Below are positions 1 through 3,978 of a stretch of DNA of 52,112 nt, one piece after another; position 1 is the stretch's first letter, and each line of letters starts with the position of its first letter. The stretch comes from Candidatus Thioglobus autotrophicus (lineage in GTDB: Bacteria > Pseudomonadota > Gammaproteobacteria > PS1 > Pseudothioglobaceae), in contig JAKUUR010000011.1 of the NCBI GenBank assembly GCA_022448455.1, positions 1 through 52,112 of the forward strand, read 5' to 3'. The notes below the pieces were generated by a model. It worked only from the letters and a program-made list of their open reading frames with translations. It searched no databases and had not been told where the DNA came from. Position numbers and translations under genes: made by a program.

Positions 1-879
1 TTTGCCCTTAATTTTACAAACACCCTTTTTGGTGAATTCCTTAGGCCTGTTATAGGAGACCCCAAAGAGAGCGGTTTTTTTGGTAGATTCGCTGTTTCTT
101 TTGTTCTCGCAATTCTATTTGTCCTTAATTTGTTTGCAATTAGTTTCTTTAAATTAAAAATACAAATTGCAATTGTCTGGCTTGAATTATTTTTACTTTT
201 CTTGGCATTTGCCTATTCTTTTGATCTCAAAATGTCGTTTATCCAGAGTAGGATTCCACTCATGATCACTCGGGGGCTATTTACGACCATTTATATTTCA
301 GCAATCTCAATCGTTATTGCGACCGCAATTGCCATCATTGGTGCCATTGCAAAACTTTCGAATAACGGCTTTGCTTATGCGATTTCCAGTTTTTATACTT
401 CTCTGTTTCGAGGGCTTCCACTTCTTTTGCAACTTTTCCTAATCTATAAAGGGCTACCACAACTCGGTTTTATGGTCGACGCAGTACCTGCAGCCATCAC
501 CGCCCTGTCACTTTGTTATGGCGCCTATATGACAGAGATCTTCCGTGCAGGAATACAGAGTATCCCTAAGGGTCAATGGGAGGCTTCAAGAGCTCTTGGC
601 TTTAAGTTTGGTCTTATGATGCGTAAAATCATCCTACCCCAAGCTGTACCCATCATCGTCCCTCCAACAGGTAACCAATTTATCGCCATGCTAAAAGATA
701 GCTCTCTTGCCTCTGTTCTTGGAGTTTGGGAATTAATGTATCTCGCTAAAACCTTAGGGGCAAGAGATTTCAGACACATGGAAATGCTTCTGACAGCTGC
801 AATGATTTATTGGGCTCTAACGATTGTGCTCGAGGTGATTCAGGCTCGGATTGAAGAGAAATACAAACAAAAAAGTTAA
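1..879 (+). CDS. Amino-acid ABC transporter permease, 5' end cut by window edge
   Basis: Inner-membrane permease of a polar amino-acid ABC importer (HisM/GlnP superfamily). The reading frame is open back to base 1 with no stop, so the gene starts outside the window; the TTG at 130 is only an internal codon. The visible part begins with hydrophobic segments and then carries the HisM core. The EAA loop that docks on the ATPase is recognisable around [19 protein letters not shown], followed by A-S-R-A-L-G. The long N-terminal part ahead of the core resembles the larger AapM/BztC-type permeases more than the short 220-residue HisM type, but that is a judgement by eye. The stop overlaps the ATG of the ATPase gene by one base (TAATG), so the two are translationally coupled. 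Substrate cannot be read from sequence. Confidence 0.9.
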
Positions 880-1649
880 TGATGGATACAAAAACCAATA
901 TCCCAAATAACACAGAAGTGACTCCAATCATTTCTCTCAAGGGAGTCAATAAGTGGTATGGAGATTTCCAGGCCCTATCCAACATCGATCTCGAGATTAA
1001 ACTCAAAGAGAAGATTGTAATTTGTGGCCCTTCTGGTTCTGGAAAGTCTACCCTTATTCGTTGCCTTAACCGTTTGGAAGCACACCAACAAGGCACAATT
1101 CATGTTAGCGGTATAGAACTGCATGAAAGAATGAAAGATATTGATGTTGTTCGCCAAGACATAGGGATGGTCTTTCAGAGTTTTAACTTGTTTCCTCATC
1201 TGACGGTCTTAGAAAACTGTATGGCAGGTCCAAATTGGGTTCGCGGTATCGATAAAAGTGAAGCCAAAGAAAGAGCCATTGCAATGCTAGAACAAGTCAA
1301 AATACCAGAACAAGCAGACAAGTATCCAGATCAACTTTCGGGTGGTCAGCAACAACGTGTGGCCATTGCAAGAAGTCTATGTATGCAACCAAAGGTTATG
1401 TTGTTTGACGAGCCTACTTCAGCACTTGACCCTGAAATGGTATCAGAGGTCTTGGAGACAATGATTGAACTAGCAAAGAGCGGTATGACAATGATTTGTG
1501 TAACCCATGAGATGGGTTTCGCTCGTCAGGTTGCGGACAGAATTGTATTTATGGCTGATGGCGAAATTGTGGAACAAAATTCACCCGAAGAATTTTTCAA
1601 TAACCCACAACATGAACGCACTAAAGTTTTTTTAGATCAAATATTATAA
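879..1649 (+). CDS. Amino-acid ABC transporter ATP-binding protein (GlnQ/AapP type)
   Basis: Cytoplasmic ATPase that powers the preceding permease. 256 residues, normal for the GlnQ/HisP family. Walker A is GPSGSGKST at residues 50–58. The ABC signature LSGGQQQR lies near residue 154 and Walker B with the [10 protein letters not shown] switch follows it. The H-loop histidine is in VTHEMGFA. The start at 879 overlaps the permease stop; a second ATG lies directly after it and would remove only one residue. The substrate-binding protein and the rest of the permease system must lie to the left, outside the window. It converges with the threonine aldolase gene, whose stop is only 10 bases away. 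Confidence 0.95.
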
Positions 1650-1659
1650 TAAAAGACTG

Positions 1660-2724
1660 TCAGCTCTTAAAGTATTTTCCAAAAACTTCAATAACAGACC
1701 TAATATCCTTTTCAGTGATACCTAAATGGCATACCAGCCTGCCTCTGTCAAGACTTGAGATTCTAATATGATTATCAAATAGATACTGCTCTAGAGGTGC
1801 ACGATGCTGCTCTGGACAATTAACAAAAAGCATGTTGGTTTGGTTTTCACCGTAATCTACTTCTAACTCTGATATTTCAGACAAACCTTGAGCCAAAAGC
1901 TTTGCATTGTTATGGTCTTCTTGAAGTCTTGCAATATTGTTCTTAAGGGCATACATCCCGCACGCAGCAATAACTCCGACCTGCCTCATACTACCACCTA
2001 GAATTTTTCTTATGCGTTTCGCTTTTGCGATTATTTCATGGCTACTCACTAATAATGTCCCTACTGGCGCACCTAGACCTTTCGACAAACAAATAGAAAC
2101 GCTGTCACAGTTTTTGGTTAGTTCCTTGGGGGATAAACCAGTATGAATGTGAGCATTGAACAAACGAGCACCATCTAGATGAACACTCAAACCTCTTTCG
2201 TGAGCAGCTTTTGCTAAGGCATCAATTTGAGACTGTGGCTGAACCAGTCCTGCAGTGGGATTTTCCAAACAAAGCAACTTGGTGACTGCATAATGAGGGT
2301 CATCTTCCTTGATTTGATTAATCATATCTTCTATCACCATAGCACCAGATTCATTGATATCAATAGGACAAATGCCAACTCCGCCAAGGACGGATGCACC
2401 ACGCGCTTCATATAAATTAGTGTGGTACTCACGCCCAATAAGCACCTCATCTCCCCGTTGGCAATGGGAAAGTATTGCGGTTAAATTGCTCTGGGTGCCA
2501 CTAGGGAAAAATAAACTCGCCTCTTTGCCTAACAACTCTGCTGCATATTGCTGCAGTTCTAGTACTTCAACATCCTCGTCATATACATCGTCACCAAGCT
2601 TAGCTTTTGGGATGGCCTCAAACATGCCTGCAGTTGGCAATGTAACTGTATCACTTCGAAAGTCAATTGGTTTATCCTCAGAATAAACTGGCAATTTAGC
2701 ACTACTTTTCTTATAATTTTTCAT
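1660..2724 (-). CDS. ltaE: Low-specificity L-threonine aldolase family (PLP)
   Basis: PLP enzyme of the threonine aldolase family, which cleaves L-threonine, allo-threonine and other beta-hydroxy-alpha-amino acids to glycine plus an aldehyde. 354 residues. The opening SDTVTLPT, the DDVYDED motif near residue 45, HLDGAR (Asp184) and SICLSKGLGAPVG with the PLP lysine Lys215 are all characteristic. The usual ENTHGG-like segment reads ENPTAGL here, a small departure that could affect substrate choice. It is the last gene of a minus-strand trio: HemJ, then the 2OG dioxygenase (9 bases upstream), then this. The dioxygenase family makes beta-hydroxylated amino acids, exactly the class this enzyme cleaves; that link is inference. 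Confidence 0.9.
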   Translation of the reverse strand: MKNYKKSSAKLPVYSEDKPIDFRSDTVTLPTAGMFEAIPKAKLGDDVYDEDVEVLELQQYAAELLGKEASLFFPSGTQSNLTAILSHCQRGDEVLIGREYHTNLYEARGASVLGGVGICPIDINESGAMVIEDMINQIKEDDPHYAVTKLLCLENPTAGLVQPQSQIDALAKAAHERGLSVHLDGARLFNAHIHTGLSPKELTKNCDSVSICLSKGLGAPVGTLLVSSHEIIAKAKRIRKILGGSMRQVGVIAACGMYALKNNIARLQEDHNNAKLLAQGLSEISELEVDYGENQTNMLFVNCPEQHRAPLEQYLFDNHIRISSLDRGRLVCHLGITEKDIRSVIEVFGKYFKS

Positions 2725-2733
2725 CTTTTTTTT

Positions 2734-3390
2734 CTAAGGCTGATACTCTGGATAAGCCAGTGTTGCTACTAGATGAACTCTTGGCTTTACACCCCCATTA
2801 AGGGCAGTATGATAGCCTCGGGTATCAGTAAAATAAACAGAACCATCTGCGGGTAGATGGGTGCAGTGGTGGTTAATAATAAGCAAGGCTCCAGGGTTTG
2901 TATAAATTGGGATATGGATTCGTGGTTCAGGATCTCTATGCCAGGAGTTGCAATTAAAGCTGTCTTTTTCTAGAATACGAACCCTTCCAATCGGATATCG
3001 AGCCGATAGTTCTTTGTAAATTTTTTCAAAATAGGTTCCTTTAAAAACATCCACCAATTCAGTAAAAGCAGATTCGTCAATCAACTCATCTTTTGCTACT
3101 TCCTCATAACTCTCATCAATTCGAGTGTAATAGCGTCCAACTAAGTCTTTATCTGATTCCACTGTATGGTTTTTTCTTCGAGTCATAGCTAGCGCATGAA
3201 AACCTGACGCAGCAGTTTTAAATTCTGACTTGGCACTCACTACATCGAGTGCTTCACGTATTTTTTTAATATCAAACTTTAGTTTAAGTCGAATAATGTG
3301 TTCGTTCCCTTTGAACGATGCAACTGAGTGAATATCAACCTTTCTGTCGATATAAGCATTCAACTCTCTTGTGTCTTCAGTAATACTCAT
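2734..3390 (-). CDS. Asp/Asn beta-hydroxylase-like Fe(II)/2-oxoglutarate dioxygenase
   Basis: 218-residue soluble protein of the aspartyl/asparaginyl beta-hydroxylase fold (PF05118 type), a family that includes free amino-acid hydroxylases such as cis-proline hydroxylases. The iron triad is visible as His151-x-Asp153 (WHRDPE) and distal His194 (GYHTALNGG). Arg204, ten residues after the distal His, sits where the family binds 2-oxoglutarate. The strand RIHIPIYTNPG (157–167) is the family hallmark. The first 110 residues are less conserved. The gene lies 9 bases after hemJ and 9 bases before the threonine aldolase gene, so co-transcription is likely. The substrate is unknown. All catalytic residues are present, so I expect an active enzyme. 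Confidence 0.8.
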   Translation of the reverse strand: MSITEDTRELNAYIDRKVDIHSVASFKGNEHIIRLKLKFDIKKIREALDVVSAKSEFKTAASGFHALAMTRRKNHTVESDKDLVGRYYTRIDESYEEVAKDELIDESAFTELVDVFKGTYFEKIYKELSARYPIGRVRILEKDSFNCNSWHRDPEPRIHIPIYTNPGALLIINHHCTHLPADGSVYFTDTRGYHTALNGGVKPRVHLVATLAYPEYQP

Positions 3391-3399
3391 AAATTCAAC

Positions 3400-3825
3400 T
3401 TAAAAGGGCTTAACAACAGAAAGGATGATAATGCCAATAAGAACTGGAACTGGAAATTCATTGAACCAACGATAAAAAGTGTCAGACCGGGTATTTTTAT
3501 CCTCTGCAAAAACACCTACCAAATAGCCACAGTAAAAATGATATACAATCAATAGTCCTACTAATACTAACTTGGCTATAAGCCAATACTGATTGCTATA
3601 GACTTCCCAAGCATAGTTTTGAACCATCCATAAACCAAACACAGTTGTAATAATAAAGCTTGGCATCATAATACCTCTATAGAGTCTTCGCTCCATCAAC
3701 TTAAAACGCTCAATGCTAATCTCATCATCCGCCATAGAATGATAAACAAACAGTCGCGGCAAGTAAAACATGCCAGCAAGCCACGAAATGAAACCGAAAA
3801 TATGTATAGCCTTAACCCAAAGCAT
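3400..3825 (-). CDS. hemJ: HemJ-type protoporphyrinogen IX oxidase
   Basis: Small integral membrane protein with about four transmembrane helices (UPF0093/HemJ), which oxidises protoporphyrinogen IX to protoporphyrin IX in haem synthesis. The family pattern is clear: MLWVKAIHIFGFISWLAG with a conserved His, FYLPRLFVYH, ERRLYRGIMMP and a final WFNEFPVPVLIGI segment. I start it at the ATG at 3825 rather than the in-frame ATG at 3849, because GGAG sits five bases before it and family members begin with MLW-K; this gives 141 residues. First gene of the trio with the dioxygenase and aldolase. Another haem gene, hemC, is about 1.5 kb away. Confidence 0.85.
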   Translation of the reverse strand: MLWVKAIHIFGFISWLAGMFYLPRLFVYHSMADDEISIERFKLMERRLYRGIMMPSFIITTVFGLWMVQNYAWEVYSNQYWLIAKLVLVGLLIVYHFYCGYLVGVFAEDKNTRSDTFYRWFNEFPVPVLIGIIILSVVKPF

Positions 3826-3978
3826 CAAAACTCCAGAAAATAGATACATAATACCGTCTCAATACCATTAATGTCTAAGATTCATTAAAGAAGTTATGTG
3901 AAATAATCAACCATTGATTTGCACTTCTCTTGTTCAATGGCATAGTAAAATTTGCCTACCATTTAAAATTAGGTCAGT

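Follow-up and report, generated by a model that had tools for sequence, protein, structure and literature searches.

Why does a gene for an Fe(II)/2-oxoglutarate (2OG)-dependent oxygenase sit immediately before a gene for a threonine-aldolase-family protein in Candidatus Thioglobus autotrophicus? The host is an ocean-dwelling relative of sulfur oxidisers, with a 1.7-Mb genome in 70 contigs (G000 here), and the pair lies near one end of the window, the 52,112-nt stretch of DNA that was analysed. A preliminary description had linked the two genes in a route from an amino acid to glycine, by hydroxylation and then cleavage. We examined that link through gene order, catalytic residues, predicted fold, adjacency across orders, an aldolase clade and neighbour enrichment, all obtained by computation; from these we infer the two reactions and their catabolic direction, the carbon hydroxylated (beta), the class of side chain and the import step.

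Layout of the locus

The coordinates bore out the earlier placement of two open reading frames (ORFs) on the minus strand, the oxygenase 9 nt upstream of the aldolase (Table 1). The substrate-binding protein of the adjacent importer is encoded beyond the window. The HemJ-like gene on the other side is a conserved neighbour in the genus and is outside the proposed route.

Table 1. Genes and spacer at the oxygenase-aldolase locus (positions in the window)
Feature	Position	Strand	Basis
Permease of the polar-amino-acid-type ABC importer, truncated by contig start	1..879	+	Family matches, orthologues
ATPase of the same importer, convergent with aldolase	879..1649	+	GlnQ-like, below the equivalog cut-offs shown
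PLP-dependent threonine-aldolase-family protein, 354 aa, ATG start, member of the oxygenase-linked clade	1660..2724	-	Pfam/NCBIfam, trees, Tyr100
Spacer from oxygenase stop to aldolase start, 9 nt	2725..2733	-	ORF coordinates
Fe(II)/2OG-dependent oxygenase, Cpz10-like, 218 aa, ATG start	2734..3390	-	ORF, phmmer, AlphaFold model, invariant residues
HemJ-like protein, upstream of oxygenase	3400..3849	-	PF03653 over cut-off; HemJ TIGR00701 135 vs 138 bits

The oxygenase is closest to the beta-hydroxylase Cpz10

His151, Asp153, His194 and Arg204, named earlier as the iron and cosubstrate residues, proved invariant in 53 of 53 aligned sequences at identities down to 48%. They supply the HxD...H iron ligands and the 2OG-binding arginine, roles assigned by alignment with Cpz10 and from PMC9814697. 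At E 1e-3, no Pfam family and no NCBIfam model matched the oxygenase, the TauD-type trimethyllysine dioxygenase model TIGR02410 included. The aspartyl/asparaginyl beta-hydroxylase family PF05118 remained sub-threshold (15.9 vs 22.6 bits, residues 157-210 only), and we rejected membership of the AspH family because this gathering cut-off was missed.

An AlphaFold model made with 53 sequences in the alignment (mean pLDDT 85.9) shares its fold with AspH (5jqy; Z 11.8, rmsd 3.5 over 147 residues). The label "AspH-like" in the preliminary description thus holds for the fold of the predicted model but not for the sequence family, and the nearest solved protein is another one, the caprazamycin beta-hydroxylase Cpz10 (7v4f/7v4m). 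A phmmer search of the PDB returned Cpz10 (1e-17) as the sole relative below E 0.9. The model matches Cpz10 7v4m with Z 20.4 and rmsd 2.2 over 164 residues at 30% identity; Cpz10 structures score Z 19.3-20.4 versus 11.9 for the next entry; the entries after Cpz10 are proline cis-4-hydroxylase, AspH and proline 3-hydroxylase, all at Z 11.7-11.9. In the Foldseek list, chains of the N-demethylase ALKBH5 appear from rank 7, below Cpz10 and proline cis-4-hydroxylase and above AspH. In both sequence and fold, similarity to the Cpz10-like group clearly exceeds that to other 2OG oxygenases.

Cpz10 beta-hydroxylates a 2-amino-butanoic acid (2-aminobutyrate) moiety; on free L-methionine it oxidises the sulfur instead, and other free amino acids are unreported as substrates (PMC9814697). 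It resembles the oxygenase in predicted fold, in HxD...H plus Arg and in having an amino-acid moiety as target, but works in antibiotic biosynthesis, is distant at the identity given above and leaves the first 29 residues of the oxygenase model outside the match. L-proline cis-4-hydroxylase (4p7w/4p7x) has a related fold (Z 11.9) and acts on a free amino acid, but shares 18% identity with the oxygenase and hydroxylates another carbon. We predict that the oxygenase is a Cpz10-like amino-acid beta-hydroxylase; judged from this analysis, hydroxylation of an amino acid is very probable.

The aldolase is a threonine-aldolase-family enzyme with a clade-specific tyrosine

The downstream protein matches Beta_elim_lyase (PF01212, 294 bits) and passes the NCBIfam cut-offs for GntG (NF041359, 391 vs 230) and for low-specificity L-threonine aldolase (PRK10534/NF007825, LtaE, 370 vs 312). 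Among solved sequences it is closest to L-allo-threonine and low-specificity threonine aldolases. The PLP lysine reported earlier is K215 in SICLSKGLG, a role that we take from family knowledge, and all 20 aligned aldolases have it. The preliminary description had also read the altered segment ENPTAGL as a hint of an unusual substrate. The motif is real, but ENP stands in place of ENT in 5 of the 20 aligned aldolases, namely the window's and four others at 93-96% identity, and the other 12 genus rows have ENT. Because the motif is limited to the window's own subclade, we rejected it as a mark of a new substrate.

Another residue follows the clade that we describe below. Tyr100, immediately before the conserved His101, is found in 48 of 52 clade rows versus 0 of the 12 nearest outside rows, 9 of which have Ala there. 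As for the chemistry of the family, according to the cited passages of PMC11016064 3-hydroxytrimethyllysine is split into glycine and an aldehyde by two threonine aldolases, Tha1 of mouse and eTA of E. coli, the latter with high activity.

The pair is conserved within the genus

Of 29 genomes of the genus, counting the window's, 23 have the oxygenase, the other copies being 77-97% identical to the window's; among 8 genomes from other genera of the family, none has it. By comparison of coordinates, the aldolase adjoins it in 22 of these 23, a count that includes G024, where the aldolase is a contig-edge fragment, and G009, where it is split over two frames. At the G009 locus (L073, G009:C4:462032-463076) an intact oxygenase stands beside the two-frame aldolase, which is either a decaying gene or an assembly error. 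In G007 the two genes lie on separate contigs and the oxygenase has a different neighbour; on its contig (L092) it is flanked by a LysR-cluster gene on one side and a Rieske-cluster gene on the other, with sarcosine-oxidase-like cluster genes nearby. In four genomes (G003, G017, G020 and G025) the oxygenase is absent and only 1-40 nt separate the HemJ-like gene from the aldolase that follows it; tblastn found no oxygenase remnant in them (best E 0.16). Since the aldolase persists there without the oxygenase, it has a use of its own.

Adjacency extends to several orders

A scan of named species genomes yielded at least 584 oxygenase relatives. We kept the best 80, a biased sample, of which 14 are in or close to the genus (L086-L099) and 66 are outside loci; every count over these 66 refers to the best 80 of at least 584. 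Judged by their titles, most of the 66 are alpha- or gammaproteobacterial, and some are MAGs of SAR324 and Acidimicrobiales. An adjacent aldolase is present in 25 of the 66: 22 called pairs (from 60 loci with a called oxygenase) together with L100, where the contig end truncates the aldolase, and with L116 and L127, whose oxygenase was lost by the ORF caller and whose pair was read from coordinates. Nine of the 22 called outside pairs overlap by exactly 4 nt. No adjacent aldolase was seen at the other 41 loci, among which two contigs end right past the oxygenase and four oxygenases were lost in ORF calling. Seven outside loci have an MmgE/PrpD gene immediately downstream of the oxygenase instead. 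Loci whose oxygenase the ORF caller lost (L115, L116, L127, L141, L146 and L163) were retained in the neighbour counts.

We also searched 25 outside oxygenase genomes whole, hand-picked as 6 with adjacency and 19 without. An aldolase match at E 1e-20 was found in 21 of the 25 and not in the remaining four, one of which is a 4.8-Mb assembly. Elsewhere the oxygenase family is patchy, since a "phylum" sample of 398 genomes gave a match at E 1e-20 in the window's own genome only, and a class sample of 369 genomes gave one other near-full-length oxygenase (G225), with the aldolase unmatched in the surrounding 18 kb. Among viral sequences, 21 stretches matched a pattern and 0 were confirmed with a single-sequence query; our search for plasmid relatives of the oxygenase found none.

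Conserved adjacency in related genomes was the check named beforehand, and its absence was to count against the link. Adjacency was found in nearly all oxygenase-bearing genomes of the genus and in 25 of the 66 outside loci. That objection fails because the pair is kept in the genus and in several orders, with a dedicated aldolase clade. The same cross-order adjacency, together with the overlaps and the clade, led us to reject chance adjacency of the two genes.

A dedicated clade of aldolases accompanies the oxygenase

In a tree of 71 aldolase rows, 52 rows form one clade (SH-aLRT 99), and a 53-row tree agrees (95); both are quick, midpoint-rooted trees with SH-aLRT values and without bootstrap. 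Rows came from several sources. The 25 aldolase loci of the whole-genome searches gave 18 "remote" rows and 6 rows already present as linked, L244 being dropped as a fragment. For background, 29 of 114 class genomes (own included) match the aldolase at E 1e-3; leaving out the window's own genome, 14 of these do so at E 5e-50 or better, of which 12 were placed and two (L177 and L180) were dropped with no aldolase ORF called. The truncated aldolase of L100 was too short for inclusion.

All 35 linked rows fall inside the clade, along with 10 of 18 remote rows, the four oxygenase-less genus rows, G032, a single near row and, of the 12 background rows, only G110. The other 11 background rows and 8 remote rows branch elsewhere. 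Two genomes (G786 and G805) have second aldolase copies outside the clade and their other copies inside. Across the 25 hand-picked oxygenase genomes, 16 hold a clade aldolase, adjacent to the oxygenase in 6 and elsewhere in 10 (of the 19 without adjacency); the remainder are 4 genomes with only non-clade aldolases, 1 with a fragment and 4 with no match.

Some clade and remote aldolases have other partners. In G032, from another genus of the family, the clade aldolase lies 19 nt before a HODM_asu-like haem oxygenase gene (L067, 7581-9513), whose product is haem N-demethylase-like (PF11927, 46 vs 25 bits); the arrangement looks as if the oxygenase partner had been swapped. In the SAR116 MAG G802 (L252, 5058-8280), a clade aldolase apart from the oxygenase lies between an aspartate-dehydrogenase-like gene, so named by eye, and an MmgE/PrpD gene. 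A remote aldolase of Kiloniella (L249) adjoins an importer that looks, by reading, to be of the phosphonate type.

Gene neighbours favour a cationic or methylated side chain

The amino-acid ABC importer described next door, on the opposite strand, is real: of 18 genus loci read, 15 have it beside the aldolase, one of the 15 with a 134-aa ORF in between. Its orthologues turn up at two outside loci, close to the pair in L101 and to the oxygenase in L146; that of L101 is 58-72% identical to the genus importer in permease and ATPase and 49% in the binding protein. The best family for the binding proteins of G021 (L076) and L101 is the lysine/arginine/ornithine type, at 96 and 127 vs 256 bits. The neighbouring importer is a probable uptake partner of the pair.

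At L101 the gene order is LysR, oxygenase, aldolase, aldehyde dehydrogenase, AraC regulator and MttB. The aldehyde dehydrogenase is on the same strand as the pair and is nearest to betaine-aldehyde dehydrogenase (442 vs 669 bits). After the pair in G001 come, instead of the importer usual in the genus, genes assigned by cluster similarity to MmgE/PrpD, an AraC-type regulator and an Opp-type importer. Over the 66 outside loci, MmgE/PrpD genes occur in 23 versus 0.5 expected and MttB genes in 14 versus 1.7 expected. Expected counts were derived from densities in 25 of these genomes, the 66 loci amounting to 0.93 Mb; the MmgE/PrpD density includes one match under Pfam's cut-off, and the Poisson values treat as independent loci that are not. 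Opp-type importer genes were seen in 13-16 of the same loci and LysR-type regulators in 15, with "Opp" and similar importer names given partly by reading or clustering. Neither the Opp-type binding protein nor the MmgE/PrpD protein (nearest IDS-epimerase and IRG1) indicated a substrate.

At the level of whole genomes, MttB is present in 25 of 25 hand-picked outside oxygenase genomes, a count without a baseline from oxygenase-less marine Alphaproteobacteria, and in 24 of 24 genus genomes versus 0 of 14 other class genomes, with oxygenase carriers not separated out. The window's genome has five MttB-family methyltransferases (contigs C10, C18, C23, C45 and C70). From gene context, namely the MttB and MmgE/PrpD neighbours, the lysine/arginine-like importer and the L101 dehydrogenase, we favour a substrate with a cationic or methylated (methylated-amine) side chain. 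Use of methylated amines fits the host, since the cited part of PMC12478193 assigns transcripts of the glycine-betaine demethylation gene mtgC partly to Candidatus Thioglobus.

Trimethyllysine as a candidate substrate

The boldest version, which we offer only tentatively and think rather unlikely, is that in marine bacteria the Cpz10-like oxygenase and its dedicated aldolase degrade a methylated basic amino acid, be it N-epsilon-trimethyllysine or a different one. With trimethyllysine, the products would be glycine and a trimethylammonio-aldehyde that could feed gamma-butyrobetaine, carnitine and glycine betaine catabolism. Trimethyllysine is consistent with carnitine-type logic, and G006 encodes a carnitine 3-dehydrogenase (708 vs 592 bits) and BKACE beside MttB (L198). 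If this version is true, the oxygenase would be a separately evolved hydroxylase for carnitine-type chemistry, working in the catabolic direction and belonging to a sequence family unlike that of the eukaryotic enzyme.

A TauD-type protein exceeds the TIGR02410 trimethyllysine-dioxygenase cut-off in 5 of 40 genomes, all of the genus: together with the oxygenase in G001, G006 and G028, and with the aldolase but no oxygenase in G003 and G017. No protein reached that cut-off in the 25 hand-picked oxygenase genomes outside the genus. Coexistence of this dioxygenase with the oxygenase in three genomes weakens the case for trimethyllysine in the genus but not elsewhere. The TauD-type protein (L220, 7087-8205 in G006) is itself unexpected if prokaryotes have no carnitine route. 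Also in keeping with carnitine-type logic, a separate locus of the window's genome (G000:C34; L218, 8978-10683) has a gene over the gamma-butyrobetaine dioxygenase cut-off; however, this gene exceeds the TmpA cut-off too and is followed by a TmpB-like HD gene that falls below its own (270 vs 300 bits), and the two together suggest use of 2-trimethylaminoethylphosphonate.

A proposed two-step route and its rivals

We propose that the two genes form a two-step unit for oxidative cleavage, in which an amino acid would be beta-hydroxylated and then cleaved by a retro-aldol reaction, and we put the probability of this reading at roughly 0.7. In this genus the importer would probably bring the amino acid into the cell. 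With O2, Fe(II) and 2OG, the oxygenase would then hydroxylate a free alpha-amino acid at its beta carbon, the side chain of that amino acid being most likely cationic or of the methylated-amine type. The threonine-aldolase-type enzyme would bind the hydroxylated product as a PLP aldimine, and retro-aldol cleavage of that aldimine would give glycine and an aldehyde. Given the Cpz10 precedent and threonine aldolase chemistry, beta-hydroxylation with retro-aldol release of glycine is the best mechanism. Chemically the linkage is well founded: PMC9814697 describes beta-hydroxylation of an amino-acid moiety by Cpz10, the closest solved protein, and the cited passages of PMC11016064 describe a threonine aldolase, in the same family as the window's, that frees glycine from a hydroxylated amino acid. 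A shared pathway is also the simplest account of the cross-order adjacency, the overlaps and the dedicated clade.

The methylated-amine setting admits another role for the oxygenase, as an N-demethylase that attacks N-methyl groups by hydroxylation, with loss of formaldehyde, during methylated-amine breakdown, the aldolase running in reverse to make serine from formaldehyde and glycine or serving the glycine pool. The presence of MttB in every hand-picked outside oxygenase genome and every genus genome searched agrees with such a role, as does the G007 contig (L092), where the gene beside the oxygenase clusters with the L134 Rieske protein (nearest GbcA, 135 vs 670 bits) and a gene nearby clusters with the L104 protein (nearest soxB, 78 vs 529 bits). 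The HODM-like gene adjoining the G032 aldolase and the place of ALKBH5 in the Foldseek list fit as well. The best structural matches are nevertheless amino-acid carbon hydroxylases, with Cpz10 far ahead and both Cpz10 and proline cis-4-hydroxylase ranked above ALKBH5, and we consider an N-demethylase improbable. We give equally little credence to an ordinary threonine aldolase that makes glycine from threonine, with an oxygenase acting on an unrelated small molecule and an operon shared for regulation only. In its favour are the LtaE equivalog score of the aldolase, the four genus genomes that have the aldolase but lack the oxygenase, and homoserine-dehydrogenase- and threonine-synthase-like genes (named by reading) a few genes away in many genus loci. 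Against it, the cross-order adjacency, 4-nt overlaps and dedicated clade would be hard to account for unless the two enzymes had an intermediate or substrate in common. An AspH-like role, with a residue of a protein as target, seems very unlikely: the distant fold similarity and the sub-threshold PF05118 match are set against a 218-aa protein in which no further Pfam domain was found, a closest structure that works on a small molecule, and linkage to an importer and an aldolase.

Relation to known systems and significance

Two-step oxidative cleavage of this kind has known counterparts. GntG, whose substrate is made by the hydroxylase GntD, belongs to guanitoxin biosynthesis, a separate pathway in a separate host, and the window's aldolase meets its family score. 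A retro-aldol role for GntG is stated in the cited part of PMC10367076. Steps 1-2 of carnitine biosynthesis follow the same logic, with 2OG-dependent beta-hydroxylation preceding a cleavage by an enzyme of threonine-aldolase or SHMT type that yields glycine and an aldehyde, according to the cited passages of PMC11016064 and PMC8085414. That route is eukaryotic and biosynthetic, however, and its dioxygenase is of the TauD type, whereas the window's oxygenase matched no NCBIfam family at E 1e-3. The E. coli threonine aldolase shares family, PLP lysine and equivalog cut-off with the window's aldolase, which differs in its clade-specific Tyr100 and its genetic tie to an oxygenase. Release of glycine by hydroxylation and retro-aldol cleavage is already known from carnitine biosynthesis, and a retro-aldol step from guanitoxin biosynthesis; within the open-access PMC literature, our searches turned up no description of a widespread catabolic unit of this kind in bacteria.

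If our reading is true, the pair would give ocean bacteria an O2-dependent exit from an amino acid. It would also suggest a function for an oxygenase that Pfam and NCBIfam models do not recognise at the cut-offs used, and would single out, within the "threonine aldolases", a subclade that may in fact act on something other than threonine.
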